Shown here in pieces: positions 20,639 to 59,802 of a stretch of DNA of 64,000 bases. Origin of the DNA: Asanoa ferruginea. GTDB taxonomy: Bacteria; Actinomycetota; Actinomycetes; Mycobacteriales; Micromonosporaceae. Below the pieces are notes generated by a model, which was given only the letters and a program-made list of their open reading frames with translations, was not told the origin of the DNA and ran no database searches. Location of the stretch: assembly GCF_003387075.1 (NCBI RefSeq), contig NZ_QUMQ01000001.1, forward strand, positions 2,914,001 through 2,978,000. The letters run 5' to 3'. Positions within the stretch are counted from its first letter, which is position 1; each line of letters opens with the position of its first letter. The position numbers and the translations under genes are program-made.

Positions 20639-21016
20639 ATGACGGGTTACCTCGGGTCCTACGTGACGCTGGGGCTCCTGCTGGTGGCCAGCGTCTTGAT
20701 CTTCGTCGGCGCGTTCACCGCCAATCGGCTGCTCAGCCCGGCCGACCCGGCCGAGCCGGCGGGCAAGCGCCAGACCTACGAGAGCGGCGTCGACCCGGTC
20801 GGCGGCGACTGGGCCCAGGTGCAGATCCGGTATTACGTCTACGCATATCTTTATGTGCTTTTCGCGGTTGAGGCCGTTTTTCTCTTTCCGTGGGCAGTCG
20901 TGTTCGACCGGCCCGGCTTCGGCGCGACCACCGTGGTGGAAATGGCCATTTTCGTGGCGGTCCTGGCGCTCGGCATCCTCTACGCCTGGCGCAAGAAGAT
21001 CCTCAACTGGACCTAG
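20639..21016 (+). CDS. nuoA: Orphan NADH-quinone oxidoreductase subunit A
   Basis: This is a 125-aa membrane subunit of complex I with three helices (YVTLGLLLVASVLIFVGAF, YAYLYVLFAVEAVFLFPWAV, VVEMAIFVAVLALGILYAW). The conserved loop YESGVDPVGGDWAQVQIRYY is intact. No nuoB or other nuo gene follows; the next gene is folP-like on the other strand. I chose the ATG at 20639, which aligns with the family N-terminus, because the frame upstream to 20525 shows no membrane character. It shares a CTAG with the convergent folP-like gene. Confidence 0.9.
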   Translation: MTGYLGSYVTLGLLLVASVLIFVGAFTANRLLSPADPAEPAGKRQTYESGVDPVGGDWAQVQIRYYVYAYLYVLFAVEAVFLFPWAVVFDRPGFGATTVVEMAIFVAVLALGILYAWRKKILNWT

Positions 21017-22009: not shown

Positions 22010-23203
22010 ATGGGTCAGCTACTCCTTATTGTGGTCGTGGCGGTCACCGTCGCGGCGGTCGTGTTCGGCGTGACCGTGTTGGTCAGCGGGCGCGACGCCG
22101 GGCTGCAGCCCGCCGAGCCCGACGGGCGGGCGTTGCCGCTGCCTACGACCCGGCCACTGCAGGAGACCGACCTCGGCGAGGTGCGCTTCGACCTGGCCAC
22201 CCGCGGTTACCGGATGGCACAGGTCGACCAGGCGATGCGCCGAGCCGCCTACGACATCGGTTACAAGGACGAGCTGATCGGGGTGCTCGAGGCCGAGGTC
22301 AACGCGTTGCGCGAGGGCCGGGTGCTCGATGCCGACGCGCTGCGCCGGGCCCGCGAGGCGGCACAGGCCCCCGCCACGCCGCCGGCGGTGGCGACCGAGC
22401 CGGCCAAGCGAGGGTGGACCGAGTTCACCCGCCCGGCTGAAGATGACGAAATCGCGACCGAGCCGGAGGCGGCCGAAGCGGCCCCGACCAGCACCGGCGA
22501 GCCCGCTGCCGACCCTGCCGCCGAGCCCGTGACCGCGCCGGCCGCCGACGTGGATTCGTCGGTCGAGAGCGCGGCCGCGCCGGTCGAGGCGGAGCCCTTG
22601 GAGCCGGCCGCCGACGACCGCGCCCCCGAGACCGCGGGCGCGGACAAGGCTGCTCAGCGGGCCGCTGCCGACCGGTCCGACGCGGACCAGCCGACCGCGG
22701 ACCCGCAGCTCGGTGACCGTGCCTCTGCCGACTCGCAGCTCGGTGATCGCGGCTCTGCCGACGCGCAGCTCGGTGACCGTGCCTCTGCCGACTCGCAGCT
22801 CGGTGACCGCGGCTCTGCCGACCCGCAGTTCGGTGATCGCGGCTCTGCTGACCAGCCGCTCGGTGACCGCGGCTCTGCCGACCAGCCGCTCGGCCACCAG
22901 GCGCCCGCCGGCCAAGCGGCCGCTGGTCAGCCGGCCACCGAGGGCGCAGGCAGCGCGGATCCGGCCAGCGCCGAGGCCCTCCAGCCGGCGGAGGAGGCGG
23001 TCGCGCCGGTCAAGGCGCGCACGCCCGCGCGGCGCACCGCAACCCGGACATCTCGCCCGACCAAGCGCGCCACGGCGGCGGCCGACCAGGGCGATGTGGG
23101 TGCTTCCGCAGAAGACGCTGATTCCGCCAAACAGCTCGACGAGGCCGAAACCTCCGCGGTCGTCGCGACGCCGACGGAAGACGCGGGGTCGGCGCGCCGA
23201 TGA
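22010..23203 (+). CDS. DivIVA-domain membrane protein with 10-aa tandem repeats
   Basis: This 397-aa protein has an N-terminal membrane helix (LLLIVVVAVTVAAVVFGVTVLV), then a short DivIVA-like segment (VRFDLATRGYRMAQVDQAMRRAAYDI with a following coiled coil, about residues 58-115), and a long acidic Ala/Glu/Pro-rich tail. The tail contains seven tandem copies of a D-x-Q-L-G-D-R-x-S-A unit (about 231-300). It is the counterpart of Rv1209. It is probably a division or polar-growth related membrane adaptor. The ATG at 22010 is the first start before the helix. It overlaps the next gene by ATGA. Confidence 0.8.
   Translation: MGQLLLIVVVAVTVAAVVFGVTVLVSGRDAGLQPAEPDGRALPLPTTRPLQETDLGEVRFDLATRGYRMAQVDQAMRRAAYDIGYKDELIGVLEAEVNALREGRVLDADALRRAREAAQAPATPPAVATEPAKRGWTEFTRPAEDDEIATEPEAAEAAPTSTGEPAADPAAEPVTAPAADVDSSVESAAAPVEAEPLEPAADDRAPETAGADKAAQRAAADRSDADQPTADPQLGDRASADSQLGDRGSADAQLGDRASADSQLGDRGSADPQFGDRGSADQPLGDRGSADQPLGHQAPAGQAAAGQPATEGAGSADPASAEALQPAEEAVAPVKARTPARRTATRTSRPTKRATAAADQGDVGASAEDADSAKQLDEAETSAVVATPTEDAGSARR
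22700..22909 (+). repeat. 30-bp tandem repeat, 7 units, inside the DivIVA-domain gene
   Basis: The unit is GAC-xCx-CAG-CTC-GGT-GAC-CGT/CGC-GCC/GGC-TCT-GCC, coding for ten residues, and it is repeated seven times in frame; the last copy is degenerate. Third-base variants alternate (GACCGTGCC versus GATCGCGGC), which suggests duplication of a two-unit block. The array should be prone to length change between strains. Confidence 0.92.
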
Positions 23204-53103: not shown

Positions 53104-53958
53104 ATGGAAACCATCCAGACCTCGGCGGGCCCGATCTCCTACACCGACACCGGCGGCAGCGGACCGACCATCGTGTTCCTGCACGGGATGCTGATGGACG
53201 GCTCGCTCTGGGACGACACGGTCAGCGCCCTCGCCGCCGACCACCGCTGCGTCGTGCCGACCCTGCCGATGGGCGCACACCAGGTGCCCGCCCACCCCGA
53301 CGCCGACCTTTCGCTGCCCGGCCTGGCCCGGCTGGTGGCCGACCTGCTGGCCGCGCTCGACCTGCACGACGTCACCCTGGTCGGCAACGACACGGGCGGC
53401 GCGCTGGCCCAACTCGTCGTGGCCGACGGCGCCGCGCGGGTGTCCCGCCTGGTGCTCGCCTCCTGCGAGGCGTTCGACAACGTGCCACCGGGCCTGACCG
53501 GCCGCACCCTGGTGCTGACCGGCCTGCTCCCGCCACGCCTGTTCGGCCTGTTCATGACGCAGATGCGGATCCGCGCGCTGCGCCGCCTCCCGGTCGCGTT
53601 CGGCTGGTTGACCAAGCGCGGCGACGCGCACACCGCCCGCTGGGTCCGTCCGGTGCTGCGCGATCCGGCGATCCGCCGCGACGCCACCCGGATGCTCCGG
53701 GCGATCCGCGCCGACCGCGACGTGCTCAACCGGCTGGCCGTCCCGCGACTGTCCGCTTTCGACGGCCCGGCTCTGGTGCTCTGGGCCCGCGGCGACCGGG
53801 TCATGCCGCCGCCGCACGGCCGTCGCCTTGCCGAGCTGCTCCCGAACGCCCGCCTGGTCGAGGTCGACGACACCGCCACGCTGATCCCGCTCGACCAGCC
53901 CCGCGTCTTCGCGTCGGCCGTCGCCGACTTCGTCCGCACCGACGAACTCATTGGCTGA
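53104..53958 (+). CDS. Alpha/beta hydrolase with Asp at the nucleophile position
   Basis: This 284-aa alpha/beta-hydrolase fold protein has an oxyanion/HG motif at VFLHGMLMDGSLW. The nucleophile elbow reads VGNDTGGALAQ, with Asp96 in place of Ser, as in haloalkane and fluoroacetate dehalogenases and epoxide hydrolases. Asp231 (WARGDRVMPP) is the probable acid. At the expected histidine position the sequence is DDTATLIPLDQP, with no His. Substrate and activity are therefore uncertain. GGGGGA precedes the ATG. Confidence 0.82.
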   Translation: METIQTSAGPISYTDTGGSGPTIVFLHGMLMDGSLWDDTVSALAADHRCVVPTLPMGAHQVPAHPDADLSLPGLARLVADLLAALDLHDVTLVGNDTGGALAQLVVADGAARVSRLVLASCEAFDNVPPGLTGRTLVLTGLLPPRLFGLFMTQMRIRALRRLPVAFGWLTKRGDAHTARWVRPVLRDPAIRRDATRMLRAIRADRDVLNRLAVPRLSAFDGPALVLWARGDRVMPPPHGRRLAELLPNARLVEVDDTATLIPLDQPRVFASAVADFVRTDELIG

Positions 53959-54511
53959 GCTCGCCGCGCTCGTGGCGGCCTGTCCCTGGCTGTGGGACGC
54001 GCTCACGGCGGTGCGTCGCTCCGGCCTGCCGGACGCGTGGATCGGCGCGGGCGTGCTGCGCGACCTGGTGTGGGACGAACGCTTCGGGCCCGGCTTCGAC
54101 GCATCCCGGGTCAAGGACGTCGACGTGGCCTTCTTCGACCCGACCGACCTGCACCGCGACCGGGCCGCGACCGAGCTGCTGGCGACCCTGCTGCCGGCGG
54201 TGCCGTGGGAGGCGACGAACCAGGCGGCCGTACACACCTGGTTCCCGGCGCATTTCGGCGGCGCGCCCGTGCCGCCGCTGCTCAGCATCGCCGACGCGGT
54301 CGCGACCTGGCCGGAGACGGCAACGTCCGTCGCGGTCCGGCTCGACGCTGCCGGCGAGCTGGAAATGTGTGCCCCCTACGGCCTGACCGACCTGCTCGGC
54401 GGCATCTGGCGACACAACCCACGACGGACCACGATGGAGCAGTCCCGCCAGCGCCTGGCCCGGCAACGCCCGGCCGAGCGCTGGCCGGGCGTCCAGGTCG
54501 TTACGGAGTGA
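53951..54511 (+). CDS. Nucleotidyltransferase-family protein
   Basis: This 186-aa protein belongs to the DUF925/PF06042-type nucleotidyltransferase fold. IGAGVLRDLVWDERFG is the family opening, and KDVDVAFFDPTDL contains the Asp pair expected to bind metal. The nucleotide and acceptor are unknown. It uses a TTG start overlapping the hydrolase stop by 8 nt (TTGGCTGA), implying coupling. Its end overlaps the convergent questin-oxidase-like gene by 11 nt. Confidence 0.85.
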   Translation: MAELAALVAACPWLWDALTAVRRSGLPDAWIGAGVLRDLVWDERFGPGFDASRVKDVDVAFFDPTDLHRDRAATELLATLLPAVPWEATNQAAVHTWFPAHFGGAPVPPLLSIADAVATWPETATSVAVRLDAAGELEMCAPYGLTDLLGGIWRHNPRRTTMEQSRQRLARQRPAERWPGVQVVTE

Positions 54512-55791: not shown

Positions 55792-57138
55792 GTGAGCGAC
55801 GAGAAGCGGTTGTCCCGGGCCGGGTTGGCCGACCTTTTCGCGGTCGGTCCGTGCCCGGTCGAGCTGGTCGGTGTCGAGGTCGAGCACGGTCTGGTCGACC
55901 CGGCCACCGGTCTGTGCGTTCCTTATCCGGCGGCCCGCCGACTGCTGAAAGCGTTTGTCGACGAGTTCGACGGCGCGCATTTCTTCGACGGCGAATTCCC
56001 GGTCGGAGTTGACCTACCCGATGGTGCGAGCTTCAGCCTGGAGACCGGTGGCGCACTCGAATACGCTTCGGCGCCACACGCCACCCTTTCGGCCACTGTG
56101 GAACAGACTCGCAGCGACCTCCAACGGGCCGCTCGGGTGGCGGCCGGGCACGGCGTCGCGCTGCTGTCGGGCGGCAACATTCCGTTCGCCACCCGCGCCG
56201 ACATCCCGTGGATCCCGAAGCCCCGGGTCGACATCATGCGGCGTTACTTCCGCAGTCTCGGCGCCGACGGGGCGTACGCCGATGAGGTCATGGGTCTGAC
56301 CCTGTCGACGCAGACCTCACTCGACTTTGTCTCCGAGGCCGACCTGCTGGAAAAGGTCCGGCTACACGTCCTGGCGGCGCCGGCGGTCAGCGCGCTGTTC
56401 GTCAACTCACCGATCGCCGAGGGCGTCGAGACGGGCGCGTTGTCCCGCCGGATGCAGTATTGGCGCCGGTTCGAGCCGGCTAGGTGCGGCGTGGTCGCGG
56501 CCGGGTCGCGCGCCACCTGCACGGTGTCTGACCTGGTCGACTGGGCGGTCCGGCTACCGATGATCTACCGGTCGGCCGGCGGCACCCATGTGCCCGCACC
56601 GGCGGTCCCGTTCGCGACCGTGCTCGACCAGGGCTTCGGCGACGGCACCTGGCCCACCCTCGACGACTGGGCGCTGCACCTGTCACAGACCTGGCCACAC
56701 GTGCGGGTCCGGCGCACGATCGAGGCCCGGGCGTGCGACGGCCTGCCCTGGCCGTTCTTCGCGGCGGCGCCGGCCATGTGGGTCGGCCTGACCTATGACG
56801 CACCGGCCCGCCGCGCCGCCATCGCCCTGCTCGAAAGCCTGACCGTGGACCAACTCGAACGCGCGACCGACGAGGTGGCGGCGAAGGGCCTGGCCGCGGC
56901 GATCGGGCCGTTCAGCGCCTGCGACCTGACCCGCGAGTTGCTCCGACTGGCCCGCGGCGGCCTGGCGGCCCGGGTGGCGGCCGGCATCGAACCACCCGAG
57001 GTGCTGTCCTACCTCGACCCGCTGGAGCGCATCTGCGACACCTTCCAGACGACGGCGGAGCAGACGCTGTCACGCTGGCACGGCGGCCTGGGCGGATCGC
57101 CGCAGGCGTATGTCGCGGAGTTCCGCATCCCGGCTTGA
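55792..57138 (+). CDS. Glutamate-cysteine ligase family 2 (GCS2/EgtA-like) protein
   Basis: This 448-aa ATP-dependent ligase is of the PF04107 type, which joins glutamate or another acid to cysteine or other amines. GVEVEHGLVDPATG is the opening, LETGGALEYASAPHATLS the ATP/metal region, LSTQTSLDFVSEADLL the substrate segment, and VRRTIEARACDGLPW the C-terminal signature. EgtA (ergothioneine) and GshA belong here, but no egtBCD genes follow, so the substrate is open. The GTG at 55792 follows GGAGG (55781-55785) by 6 nt. Confidence 0.83.
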   Translation: MSDEKRLSRAGLADLFAVGPCPVELVGVEVEHGLVDPATGLCVPYPAARRLLKAFVDEFDGAHFFDGEFPVGVDLPDGASFSLETGGALEYASAPHATLSATVEQTRSDLQRAARVAAGHGVALLSGGNIPFATRADIPWIPKPRVDIMRRYFRSLGADGAYADEVMGLTLSTQTSLDFVSEADLLEKVRLHVLAAPAVSALFVNSPIAEGVETGALSRRMQYWRRFEPARCGVVAAGSRATCTVSDLVDWAVRLPMIYRSAGGTHVPAPAVPFATVLDQGFGDGTWPTLDDWALHLSQTWPHVRVRRTIEARACDGLPWPFFAAAPAMWVGLTYDAPARRAAIALLESLTVDQLERATDEVAAKGLAAAIGPFSACDLTRELLRLARGGLAARVAAGIEPPEVLSYLDPLERICDTFQTTAEQTLSRWHGGLGGSPQAYVAEFRIPA

Positions 57139-57224
57139 GCCGACCGGAAGTTGATCCGGAAGCAGGATCGGGGCGACGATCGCACCTGACCCTGGCGGCG
57201 GCGCCTCCTGCGGAACGGAGCCTG

Positions 57225-57842
57225 ATGGCGAGCGACGATGACTTCCTGGCCTGGCGCGGCTCGCTGCACCGGTTGACCGAGAGTCGGGAGGCCGCGCGTT
57301 CGTGGCGCCGGCGGCGCTACGCCTTCGCGCACCGGTTGGGCGAGGCCCTGGCCGGACCGACGCCGGACAGCGCCGCGATCGACGGGCCGGTGGTCTACGG
57401 CATCTGGCTCCGGATGGGGCTGCTCTACGTCGGCCAAACCACGGAAGCGCAGCGCCGCCTGCGGGACCTGCCCGTCGGCGAGAGCCACCACCTGGCCAAC
57501 ACCTTTCCGCCCGAGATCTGGCACAAGGTGCTGGTCGTCGCGTGGCCCCGGCTGCCCGAGGCGGCGCCGCTGACGGACGCGCTCGGCGCGTCACTCGTCG
57601 GTCTGGCGCTCGAGCATCGGCTCCAGGAGCGGCTGCAGCCACTCGCCAACTCGGAGCGACGCACGTCAGACGGCGGGTGGCGGGCGGTGGCACGGGAAGC
57701 CAGCAGGTCGCGCGGCGCCCGCGCCGCCAAGCAGGTCGAGGTGTTGTCTCGCGCGGTCGAGCGCGTATGGGACCAGGCCGACGGCACCGGCCCGCTGTCG
57801 CCGGCCTGCCGGCTGGTCTTTCCGGAGCGCCTGGCGGTCTAG
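57225..57842 (+). CDS. GIY-YIG-like protein
   Basis: This 205-aa protein has a segment VVYGIWLRMGLLYVGQTTEA followed by RRLRDL, similar to the GIY...YIG core and the downstream Arg of GIY-YIG nucleases. SHHLANTFPPE could supply the Glu. The tail is Arg-rich (SRSRGARAAKQVEVL). It might be a nuclease or a degenerate relative. ATG 57225 (GGAG 4 nt upstream) is chosen; the frame extends to 57135. Its 3' end is the seed of the following tandem repeat. Confidence 0.55.
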   Translation: MASDDDFLAWRGSLHRLTESREAARSWRRRRYAFAHRLGEALAGPTPDSAAIDGPVVYGIWLRMGLLYVGQTTEAQRRLRDLPVGESHHLANTFPPEIWHKVLVVAWPRLPEAAPLTDALGASLVGLALEHRLQERLQPLANSERRTSDGGWRAVAREASRSRGARAAKQVEVLSRAVERVWDQADGTGPLSPACRLVFPERLAV

Positions 57843-58270
57843 CCAGGTCAAGGGCGAACCAGCGGCCCTTCCGGAGCGTGAGGCGGTGCAGGCCAGTCTA
57901 GGTCGGACCACCGGCCTTGCCGGAGGGTGTGGCGGTGTAGGCGGGTCAAGGTCGGACCACCGATCTTGCCGGAGGGTGTGGCGGTGTAGGCCGGTCAAGG
58001 CCGGACCACCGGGTGCGTCTGGTGGTCTAGCCGGTCAAGGCCGGACCACCGGGTGCGTGTGGCGGTCTAGCCGGTCAAGGCCGGACCACCGGGTGCGTCT
58101 GGTGGTCTAGCCGGTCAAGGCCGGACCACCGGGTGCGTCTGGTGGTCTAGCCGGTCAAGGCCGGACCACCGGGTGCGTCTGGTGGTCTAGCCGGTCAAGG
58201 CCGGACCACCGGGTGCGTCTGGCGGCCTAGCCGGTCAAGGCCGAACCACCGGGTGCGTCTGGCGGTCTAG
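57843..58270. repeat. Tandem array of 49-bp and 40-bp units filling a convergent gap
   Basis: Three 49-bp units (57843-57891, 57892-57940, 57941-57989), one of 41 bp (57990-58030) and six of 40 bp (to 58270) lie head to tail. The 40-bp unit runs CCGGTCAAGGCCGGACCACC, GGGTGCGTCTGGTGG, TCTAG. Most units end in (C/G)TAG. The array starts right after the GIY-YIG-like stop and its last CTAG contains the stop of the opposite RecB-like gene. Inner inverted repeats (GGTC/GACC, CCACC/GGTGG) can fold. No gene lies within it. Confidence 0.95.
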
Positions 58271-59151
58271 CCCGTCAAGGCCCGCTCGACCGCGGACCAC
58301 TGGTCTTTGACCGGGAGGTCGGCGCCGGCTGGGCAGGAGCGTTTGAAGTCGCACCAGCCGCACATCGGGCCCGGGGTCGTCGGGAAGGCGTCGTCAGGGT
58401 CGGCGCCGGCCGCGACCGACTTTTCCGCGTCGAGGATGTCGCGGGCCGTGTCTTCGGCTCGGGAGACCTGGCGGGCGATCGAGGCCTCGGTGTGGTCGTG
58501 TGCCGCGATCGTGCCGGTCGGGAGGTGGTGCAGCTCGACCCGGCGGCAGGGGCGGCGGAAGACCCGCTCGGCCGCGTAGGCGTAGAGCGCCAGCGCCTGG
58601 GAGCCGCGGGCGTCGTCGGTGTCGAGGCCTGTGCGGCCGGTCTTGTAGTCGACGATGGCCAGCTCGGCGCCGCGGGCGTCGATGCGGTCGGCCCGGCCGT
58701 TGAAGGCCAGCACCGACGTCTTGACCGCGACCACCCGCTCGACGCCCACCGGCTCGGCGTCGGGGTCGAGGCCGCCGACATAACCCTCGAGCCAGTCGAG
58801 GGCGCGCCGGTAGATCGCCCGCTCCTGCTCGTCGTCGCGGTAGCCCTCGCGGACCCAGGTGCCCTTGAGCAGGCCCGGCAGGGCCTCGCGGGTGCGGCGC
58901 TCAGGTGGCAGCGCGAACCAGCCGCGCAGCGCCGTGTGCACGCTCGCGCCCAGGGAGTTGTGTGCCCACGGCGGGCCCTTGGGCGGGGTCGGGCGGTCGA
59001 CGTAGGAATAGCGGTAGCGGCGGGGGCAGTCGGTGTAAGCGCCGAGCTTGCTCGGCGTGCACACGAAGAGCCGCTCGGGCATGCCGGCGAAACCGAGCTG
59101 CTCGGCCCGGGGCGCCGGAGCCCGGCCGGCTGGGGAGGTTGGCCTGCGCAC
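58267..59151 (-). CDS. RecB-family PD-(D/E)XK nuclease with Fe-S cluster
   Basis: This 294-aa protein has SKLGAYTDCPRRYRY as the first cysteine region, the nuclease motif GRADRIDARGAELAIVDYKTG (Asp, then D-x-K), QALALYAYA, and the C-terminal cysteines of CGWCDFKRSC. Together they form the 4Fe-4S-stabilised nuclease domain of RecB/AddB/Cas4-like exonucleases. It probably acts in DNA repair. There are no CRISPR arrays nearby. The GTG start has GGGAGG upstream. Its stop lies in the last unit of the tandem array. Confidence 0.88.
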   Translation of the reverse strand: MRRPTSPAGRAPAPRAEQLGFAGMPERLFVCTPSKLGAYTDCPRRYRYSYVDRPTPPKGPPWAHNSLGASVHTALRGWFALPPERRTREALPGLLKGTWVREGYRDDEQERAIYRRALDWLEGYVGGLDPDAEPVGVERVVAVKTSVLAFNGRADRIDARGAELAIVDYKTGRTGLDTDDARGSQALALYAYAAERVFRRPCRRVELHHLPTGTIAAHDHTEASIARQVSRAEDTARDILDAEKSVAAGADPDDAFPTTPGPMCGWCDFKRSCPAGADLPVKDQWSAVERALTG

Positions 59152-59190
59152 GGGAGAATCCTCCCATCCGGGTACGACAACCCCGGATGG

Positions 59191-59802
59191 TCACCCCGCC
59201 CGGTAGGTGTCGACGAACGCGAAGATGGCGTCCGCGATCAGCTGCACCGCGATCGCCGCCAGCAGGAGGCCGGCGATGCGGGTCAGCACCTCGATGCCGC
59301 CGGGGCGCAGGATCTTGACGACGACGCCGCAGTAGCGCAGCACCAGCCAGACCACGAGCATGGCGACGAGGATGCCGAAGCCGACCGCTACGTAGTCGCC
59401 GGCGCCGTCCGAACGTTGCACGAACAGCATGGTCGCGACGATCGCTCCGGGGCCGGCCAGCAACGGCGTGCCGAGCGGCACCAGCGCGATGTTGGACGTC
59501 GAGTGTGGCGACGGGTCGTCGGTCTTCCCGGTCAGCAGCTCCAGGGCGATCATGATCAGCAGCAGGCCGCCCGCGCCTTGCAGGGCCGGCAGCGAGACGT
59601 GCAGGTATTCGAGCAGGTTCTGGCCGGCCACCGCGAACAGCACGATGACGCCGAGCGCGAGACACACCGCCTGCCACGCGGCCTTGTGGCGGTCGCGCGC
59701 CGCCATGTTGCCGGTCATCGCGACGAAGATCGGCACCATGCCGGGAGGGTCCATGATCACCAGGAGAGTGACGATGACCTCGCCGAATACCTTCAAATCC
59801 AC
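59191..59802 (-). CDS. MarC-family membrane protein
   Basis: This 203-aa protein has six predicted helices of the UPF0056/MarC family: EVIVTLLVIMDPPGMVPIFVA at the N-terminus, PLGTPLLAGPGAIVATMLF in the middle and AGLLLAAIAVQLIADAIFAF at the end. The function is not established, despite the old antibiotic-resistance name. The GTG at 59802 is chosen by alignment with the family; no ribosome site is clear. It lies between the nuclease and PHP genes on the same strand. Confidence 0.88.
   Translation of the reverse strand: MDLKVFGEVIVTLLVIMDPPGMVPIFVAMTGNMAARDRHKAAWQAVCLALGVIVLFAVAGQNLLEYLHVSLPALQGAGGLLLIMIALELLTGKTDDPSPHSTSNIALVPLGTPLLAGPGAIVATMLFVQRSDGAGDYVAVGFGILVAMLVVWLVLRYCGVVVKILRPGGIEVLTRIAGLLLAAIAVQLIADAIFAFVDTYRAG

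Follow-up and report, generated by a model that had tools for sequence, protein, structure and literature searches.

Minisatellite birth has been described in outline. In the model of Haber and Louis (1998), as cited in the review PMC6947457 on eukaryotic genomes, direct repeats of 5–10 bp that flank a single-copy motif act as the seed, and slippage or unequal crossing-over between them, followed by amplification, gives units that correspond to the segment between the repeats. Among actinobacteria, MIRUs are tandem units of 40–100 bp that form a scattered family, present at 41 places in the chromosome of M. tuberculosis H37Rv (PMC2734929). According to a survey of prokaryotic satellites (PMC6749651), the sequence is unique for 40.1% of bacterial satellites, and intergenic ones exist in some species; the word "convergent" is absent from its main text. 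Finally, convergent genes can overlap by the four bases CTAG, CTAA, TTAG, or TTAA (PMC2174442), and the passages on them in that paper concern the overlaps as such, not their amplification.

Here, we describe a tandem array in Asanoa that lies precisely between the stops of two convergent genes in a 64-kb window, i.e., the whole stretch of 64,000 nucleotides that was analyzed. The array is very probably a locally born minisatellite, in which the junction of the two genes was duplicated via the direct repeat CTGGTCTTT and then amplified. It resembles the Haber and Louis model in its seed, a 9-bp direct repeat, and in its mode of growth, and differs from it in that each of two convergent coding ends contains one seed and both stops are part of the unit. 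The presumed ancestor is a CTAG overlap of the type listed in PMC2174442. The mechanism of birth is known in outline; what is new is its location at the stop that convergent genes share, seen twice in one genome. Among the titles and abstract openings of the open-licence papers searched, none reported an array at convergent bacterial genes that derives from their junction.

The array and its genomic setting

The array (57843–58270) consists of three 49-bp units followed by seven 40-bp units, and ends in a CTAG that serves as the stop of the RecB-like gene. The features of the locus are as follows; identities refer to the predicted RecB-end plus GIY-end joint described in the next section.

53951–54511, NTP_transf_6 gene, named after its copy at locus L084
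54512–58266, no strand, lineage-specific insert between the convergent NTP_transf_6 and RecB-like genes (questin-oxidase-like, GCS2, and GIY-YIG-like genes, then the array)
57225–57842, + strand, GIY-YIG-like gene (gene call; TTG-started open reading frame from 57135; stop at 57840–57842), its 3′ end one probable parent of the unit
57813–57821, + strand, left copy of CTGGTCTTT, codons L-V-F, in the GIY-YIG-like gene
57839–57842, no strand, CTAG at the end of the GIY-YIG-like gene
57843–57891, + strand, unit 1, 49 bp, 37/47 aligned identities
57892–57940, + strand, unit 2, 49 bp, 38/48
57941–57989, + strand, unit 3, 49 bp, 38/48
57990–58269, + strand, seven 40-bp units, shortened further and nearly uniform; the two that were aligned give 34/39 and 35/40
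58267–58270, no strand, last CTAG, stop of the RecB-like gene
58267–59151, − strand, RecB-like gene (PF12705 PDDEXK_1, E 4.5e-33), its 3′ end the other probable parent of the unit
58300–58308, + strand, right copy of CTGGTCTTT, codons K-D-Q on the − strand, in the RecB-like gene

Tandem Repeats Finder reports a 49/98-bp array at 57818–58012 and a 40-bp array of 7.3 copies at 57990–58282 (96% matches, score 537). A sequence-only reading of this DNA had proposed that the array starts right after the CTAG at 57839–57842 and ends with the stop of the opposite gene, that one motif precedes both CTAGs, and that removal of 57843–58270 would leave the two genes on a single CTAG. The sequence bears this out: CTGGCGGTCTAG ends at 57842 and again at 58270, CTGGCGGT precedes both boundary CTAGs, and the joined flanks read ...CTGGCGGTCTAGCCCGTCAAGG..., with one CTAG common to both genes. 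The four other CTAG pairs that it had counted in the window were recovered by the gene caller at 21013, 29622, 37899, and 40186; in 864 kb of the same genome, a 4-nt overlap is present in 25 of 142 called convergent pairs and has the sequence CTAG in 15 of these. Its unit length of 40 bp applies to seven units and not to the first three, which measure 49 bp. Similarly, the deletion relative to the RecB-like gene end that is common to the 49-bp units measures 11 bp and not the proposed 9 bp; the 40-bp units lack a further ∼8–9 bp. Elsewhere in the window, a 30-bp array of 6.5 copies (22700–22893, 87% matches) lies inside a called + strand gene (22031–23203) and is probably coding.

Tandem repeats are prone to collapse and expansion, and the copy number given here comes from one assembly. 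Nevertheless, an assembly artefact of a low-complexity region is extremely improbable: the genome is one contig of 9.07 Mb, the 49-bp units are identical neither to one another nor to the 40-bp units, and both edges of the array coincide with gene stops.

The best named matches to the RecB-like protein are from four Asanoa species (87–91%). The GIY-YIG label rests on a by-eye reading of the motif GIWLRMGLLYVGQT. The window protein gave no Pfam match at E 0.001 and no NCBIfam match at E 1, and an ortholog from the congener G001 matched in Pfam at E 0.2, below the cut-off; three aligned orthologs are 57–66% identical.

In all five congeners, the NTP_transf_6 and RecB-like genes are convergent neighbors, ∼0.1 kb apart in two (L084 in G002, L205 in G004) and 0.5–0.7 kb apart, with other sequence between them, in three (L085, L086, and L087). 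In the window, the distance is ∼3.8 kb. The questin-oxidase-like gene of the insert (− strand) overlaps the conserved NTP_transf_6 gene by 11 nt (54501–54511), so that the insert is tail to tail with its neighbors on both sides. The GIY-like gene is present in two of six Asanoa genomes and, fragments counted, in 10 of 354 genomes of the family; in the other Asanoa species that has it, the RecB-like gene is on a different contig. Because this search of the six Asanoa and 354 family genomes found no relative in which the two genes are side by side, the exact ancestral junction is one that we infer.

Probable derivation of the unit from the two gene ends

Several observations point to the two gene ends as the source of the unit. 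First, once the array is removed, the two copies of CTGGTCTTT lie 59 bp apart, one in each gene end, thus matching the size and placement of the seeds in the Haber and Louis model. Within the 64 kb, CTGGTCTTT is found nowhere else, neither on the + strand beyond 57813 and 58300 nor on the − strand. By chance, 2.9% of random pairs of 45-nt gene ends have a word of at least 9 bp in common. Second, a tandem duplication from one of these copies to the other would give a joint in which the RecB end is followed by the GIY end. Units 1–3 agree with this joint at 37–38 of 47–48 aligned bases with one common 11-bp deletion, and the two 40-bp units that were aligned agree with it apart from their further deletion. 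When all breakpoints were scanned, the class that includes CTGGTCTTT scored 39.67 and the best 39.83. Third, none of 150 random pairs of gene ends, and none of 600 in a larger run, reached the observed score. The 40-bp units scored 38.0, with the null maximum at 20.8 (n = 150). With the real RecB end and a random partner, 0/600 reached the observed score; with the real GIY end, 1/600 did. Both halves therefore count, the RecB half being the weaker part of the proof. The claim that the first units carry both gene ends is thus supported, and the two ends are arranged and oriented as expected if a stop-to-stop junction had been duplicated. The further proposal of a junction duplicated and then amplified gains support from the same alignments, to which CTGGTCTTT adds a breakpoint, with the exact 4-nt overlap as the presumed ancestor.

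The codons that contain CTGGTCTTT bear on which came first, the gene ends or the array. The left copy encodes L-V-F of ...LVFPE, and VFPE or VFPG is found at four of seven ortholog loci, the other three of which gave no readable end. The right copy encodes KDQ of KDQW; K[D/E]QW is present in four of five congeners, and the fifth has KEPW. Moreover, the RecB-like gene of the congener G003 contains AAAGACCAGTGG unchanged, and [E/D]RxLT occurs in the RecB-like genes of three of the five congeners. Both 9-bp copies thus lie in codons largely kept in array-free relatives, which argues that the ends of the GIY-like and RecB-like genes probably predate the array. In the reverse order of events, the array would have come first, or arrived with the insert, and both genes would later have taken their 3′ ends and stops from it. 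The RecB-like stop does now lie within repeat sequence, and the RecB-like gene of G004 runs into a different small repeat at its own stop. However, the parts of both genes that resemble the unit are coding sequence that array-free relatives also keep; this order is largely refuted, and we consider it very unlikely.

We also considered that a mobile or dispersed repeat, such as a MIRU-like element, inserted at the junction. Like MIRUs, the array has tandem 40–100 bp units in an actinobacterium, and a second array in the same genome has the words GTCAAGGCCG and GTCTAGGCCG in common with it. While MIRUs are a scattered family with the same unit at many loci, the Asanoa unit was found at a single locus and is built from its own two flanking genes. 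The genome contains no second copy of the unit: a pattern search allowing up to two mismatches gave 13 matches outside the array against 16 for a reversed control. Part of the array matched one other place in the genome, weakly (67%), in a different 18-bp array, and a further match consists of 26 bp of the GIY-like coding part. In the five congeners, the best match has an E value of 0.0137. Judged from the genome itself and the five congeners, an insertion of this kind is highly unlikely. An Rfam match to MIR1846 (E 0.34, below the gathering score) is due to chance.

A second array and convergent junctions in Asanoa

In the sampled genome, 57 called convergent pairs have gaps of 20–2000 bp, and the contexts of the two stops were compared in each. 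Three pairs exceeded the null maximum of 20: the locus L171 (25/32), the window array (23/32), and L183 (21/32). The first two agree in the exact register of a 4-nt overlap. L183 is not counted as a case; it lies 8 bases out of register and amounts to a small duplication within a gap of 22 bp. Of the 155 convergent pairs from five other genomes, none exceeded its own null maximum. A further candidate for a stop-to-stop array, L187, was rejected, as no plausible left gene ends at its array.

The second case has the following layout.

L171 array, 60-bp unit, 5.6 copies, between a PDDEXK_1 gene and an M20 peptidase gene

This array is bounded by GACGGCCTAGCC at both stops, and the joint predicted from the two flanking gene ends is matched by the first subunit with a score of 26.5 and by the last with 33.0, against null maxima of 24.5 and 28.0, respectively (n = 150). 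In four of five congeners, the same gene pair overlaps by 27, 18, 57, and 36 nt, so that an array would not fit; in G004, the remaining congener, we did not find the left gene next to the peptidase gene. L171 shows what appears, from these comparisons, to be the birth of an array inside an array-free convergent overlap, though not an exact 4-nt overlap.

Strong intergenic arrays, defined by a Tandem Repeats Finder score of at least 150, are mostly at convergent junctions in the 864 kb sampled from this genome (10 of 13, with 2 at same-strand junctions and 1 at a divergent junction); these counts are approximate, as they rest on our own codon-based gene calls. Convergent gaps make up 26% of the intergenic bases, and the excess of arrays in them has p = 1.8e-4, or p = 6.8e-6 when counted by gene pairs. 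Pfam supports both neighbors at L167, L171, L179, L199, and L203. The contrast with five other genomes is weak: the proportion is 10 of 141 convergent pairs in this genome and 6 of 255 in the others (p = 0.031). The excess at convergent junctions was not significant in the other genomes sampled, among them the two larger congener samples (G004, p = 0.71; G001, p = 0.41). At the junction next to SelA, this genome has a 136-bp array of 2.9 copies and the congener G005 an independent 31-bp array of 2.8 copies; no array was found at the SelA stop of the other four congeners. Around the stop of the RecB-like gene, 8 of 28 loci, the window included, have an array (score at least 60) that starts at most 100 bp away, five of them scoring below 100; 2 of 30 loci were left out of this survey.

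Several other arrays were seen along the way. At the RecB-like stop of G004 (L008), there is a separate 36-bp repeat whose units, by eye, seem to carry the end of the convergent neighbor (TCAGGTCGGCTCG). Across the SelA junctions (L309–L314), five of six Asanoa genomes have either two different arrays or single GC-rich inverted repeats, and the sixth has almost no gap. A 39-bp repeat is present further on from SelA in all six genomes and may lie in the neighboring gene, whose FG-GAP matches are below the cut-off. L196 had been classed as convergent by the gene caller and was moved to the same-strand junctions because of a same-strand gene at L196:589–1251. Its array (L196:290–567; G000:C1:5700290) has, by eye, about six units of ∼47 bp, most with ATGACCGGGC, and resembles a start/stop overlap multiplied likewise. 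L002:1320–1770 (G000:C1:8684602 onward) has a different tandem array of the 18-bp GGCCGCCCACCCGGTCCA and variants with GTCTAGGCCG/GTCAAGGCCG, which is followed by a perfect 50-bp palindrome (L002:1890–1939); this gap is convergent if the called open reading frame over the array itself is spurious.

Hairpins, function, and the proposed history of the array

On both strands, the 40-bp unit is predicted to form a 30-nt hairpin with one arm from each gene end, for example:

58101–58130, no strand, predicted unit hairpin GGTGGTCT-a-GCC-ggtcaa-GGC-c-GGACCACC

As + strand RNA, 58101–58140 has a predicted folding energy of −21.7 kcal/mol (z −2.7). Single 40-bp units gave z scores of −2.7 and −1.2 on the + strand and −2.5 and −3.2 on the − strand, and the whole array compared with shuffles gave −6.6 (+) and −3.9 (−). 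Folds of the unit with DNA parameters are weak (z −0.7 and −0.2). We do not claim compensatory pairing between units 1–3, as three units in shifting registers are too few.

These hairpins raise the question of whether selection keeps the array as a serial two-way transcription terminator between the convergent genes. Against tandem-shuffled controls, the unit has z scores of −3.6/−2.3, the strongest among the 12 arrays that were initially put in the convergent class. Single GC-rich inverted repeats are present, by eye, at the SelA junction of three congeners, and one lies within the 31-bp array of G005; in Streptomyces, convergent transcripts are described as commonly overlapping (PMC3765725). 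However, most other convergent arrays have little excess folding, with a mean z of −0.6 over the 12 arrays compared to −0.07 for the 20 of 42 coding arrays that were folded, and this test gave no support to a general terminator role of convergent arrays. Moreover, a scan of 57000–59300 found no terminator site with a T-run (U-tract) within the array; the only such site (57800–57813) is outside it, at the end of the GIY-like gene, and shuffles give 0.5. Selection for termination is therefore rather unlikely. Hairpins flanked by direct repeats have been reported to promote polymerase slippage in vitro, as deletions (PMC4134008), and the hairpins may thus explain instability of the array without any function. 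In our view, the array is tolerated, with a minority chance of action as a serial terminator.

For the preferred reading of a locally born minisatellite, we suggest the following history. A lineage-specific insert would have brought the GIY-YIG-like gene into a tail-to-tail arrangement with the RecB-like gene, in which a single CTAG very probably served both. The 59-bp junction would then have been duplicated by slippage or by unequal exchange at the two copies of CTGGTCTTT, as the matching joint suggests. One copy of the junction may have lost 11 bp and been repeated as 49-bp units; loss of ∼9 bp more would have given the 40-bp units, which would have been amplified and made uniform on the RecB side. 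With all unit boundaries at the shared stop, gain or loss of copies would leave both proteins unchanged, and the array would for this reason be tolerated. The hairpin of the 40-bp unit would favor more slippage and, as a guess, could make the array a stack of two-way terminators.

It is seldom easy to trace how a tandem array arose. In this case, the sequence beside the array still shows the two parents of the unit, the seed repeats, and the intermediate unit lengths, and the second case in the same genome has array-free relatives. A tentative extension, which we consider possible while leaning somewhat against it, is that convergent junctions of the Asanoa lineage are general birthplaces of minisatellites, by micro-homology duplication and amplification that occurred independently at many loci and in different species. 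Colliding transcription or hairpins would perhaps drive slippage at these sites, where no promoter or ribosome site would be harmed. This raises the testable questions of whether new repeats arise preferentially at tail-to-tail junctions in GC-rich actinomycetes and whether arrays born at such junctions become terminators or typing markers.
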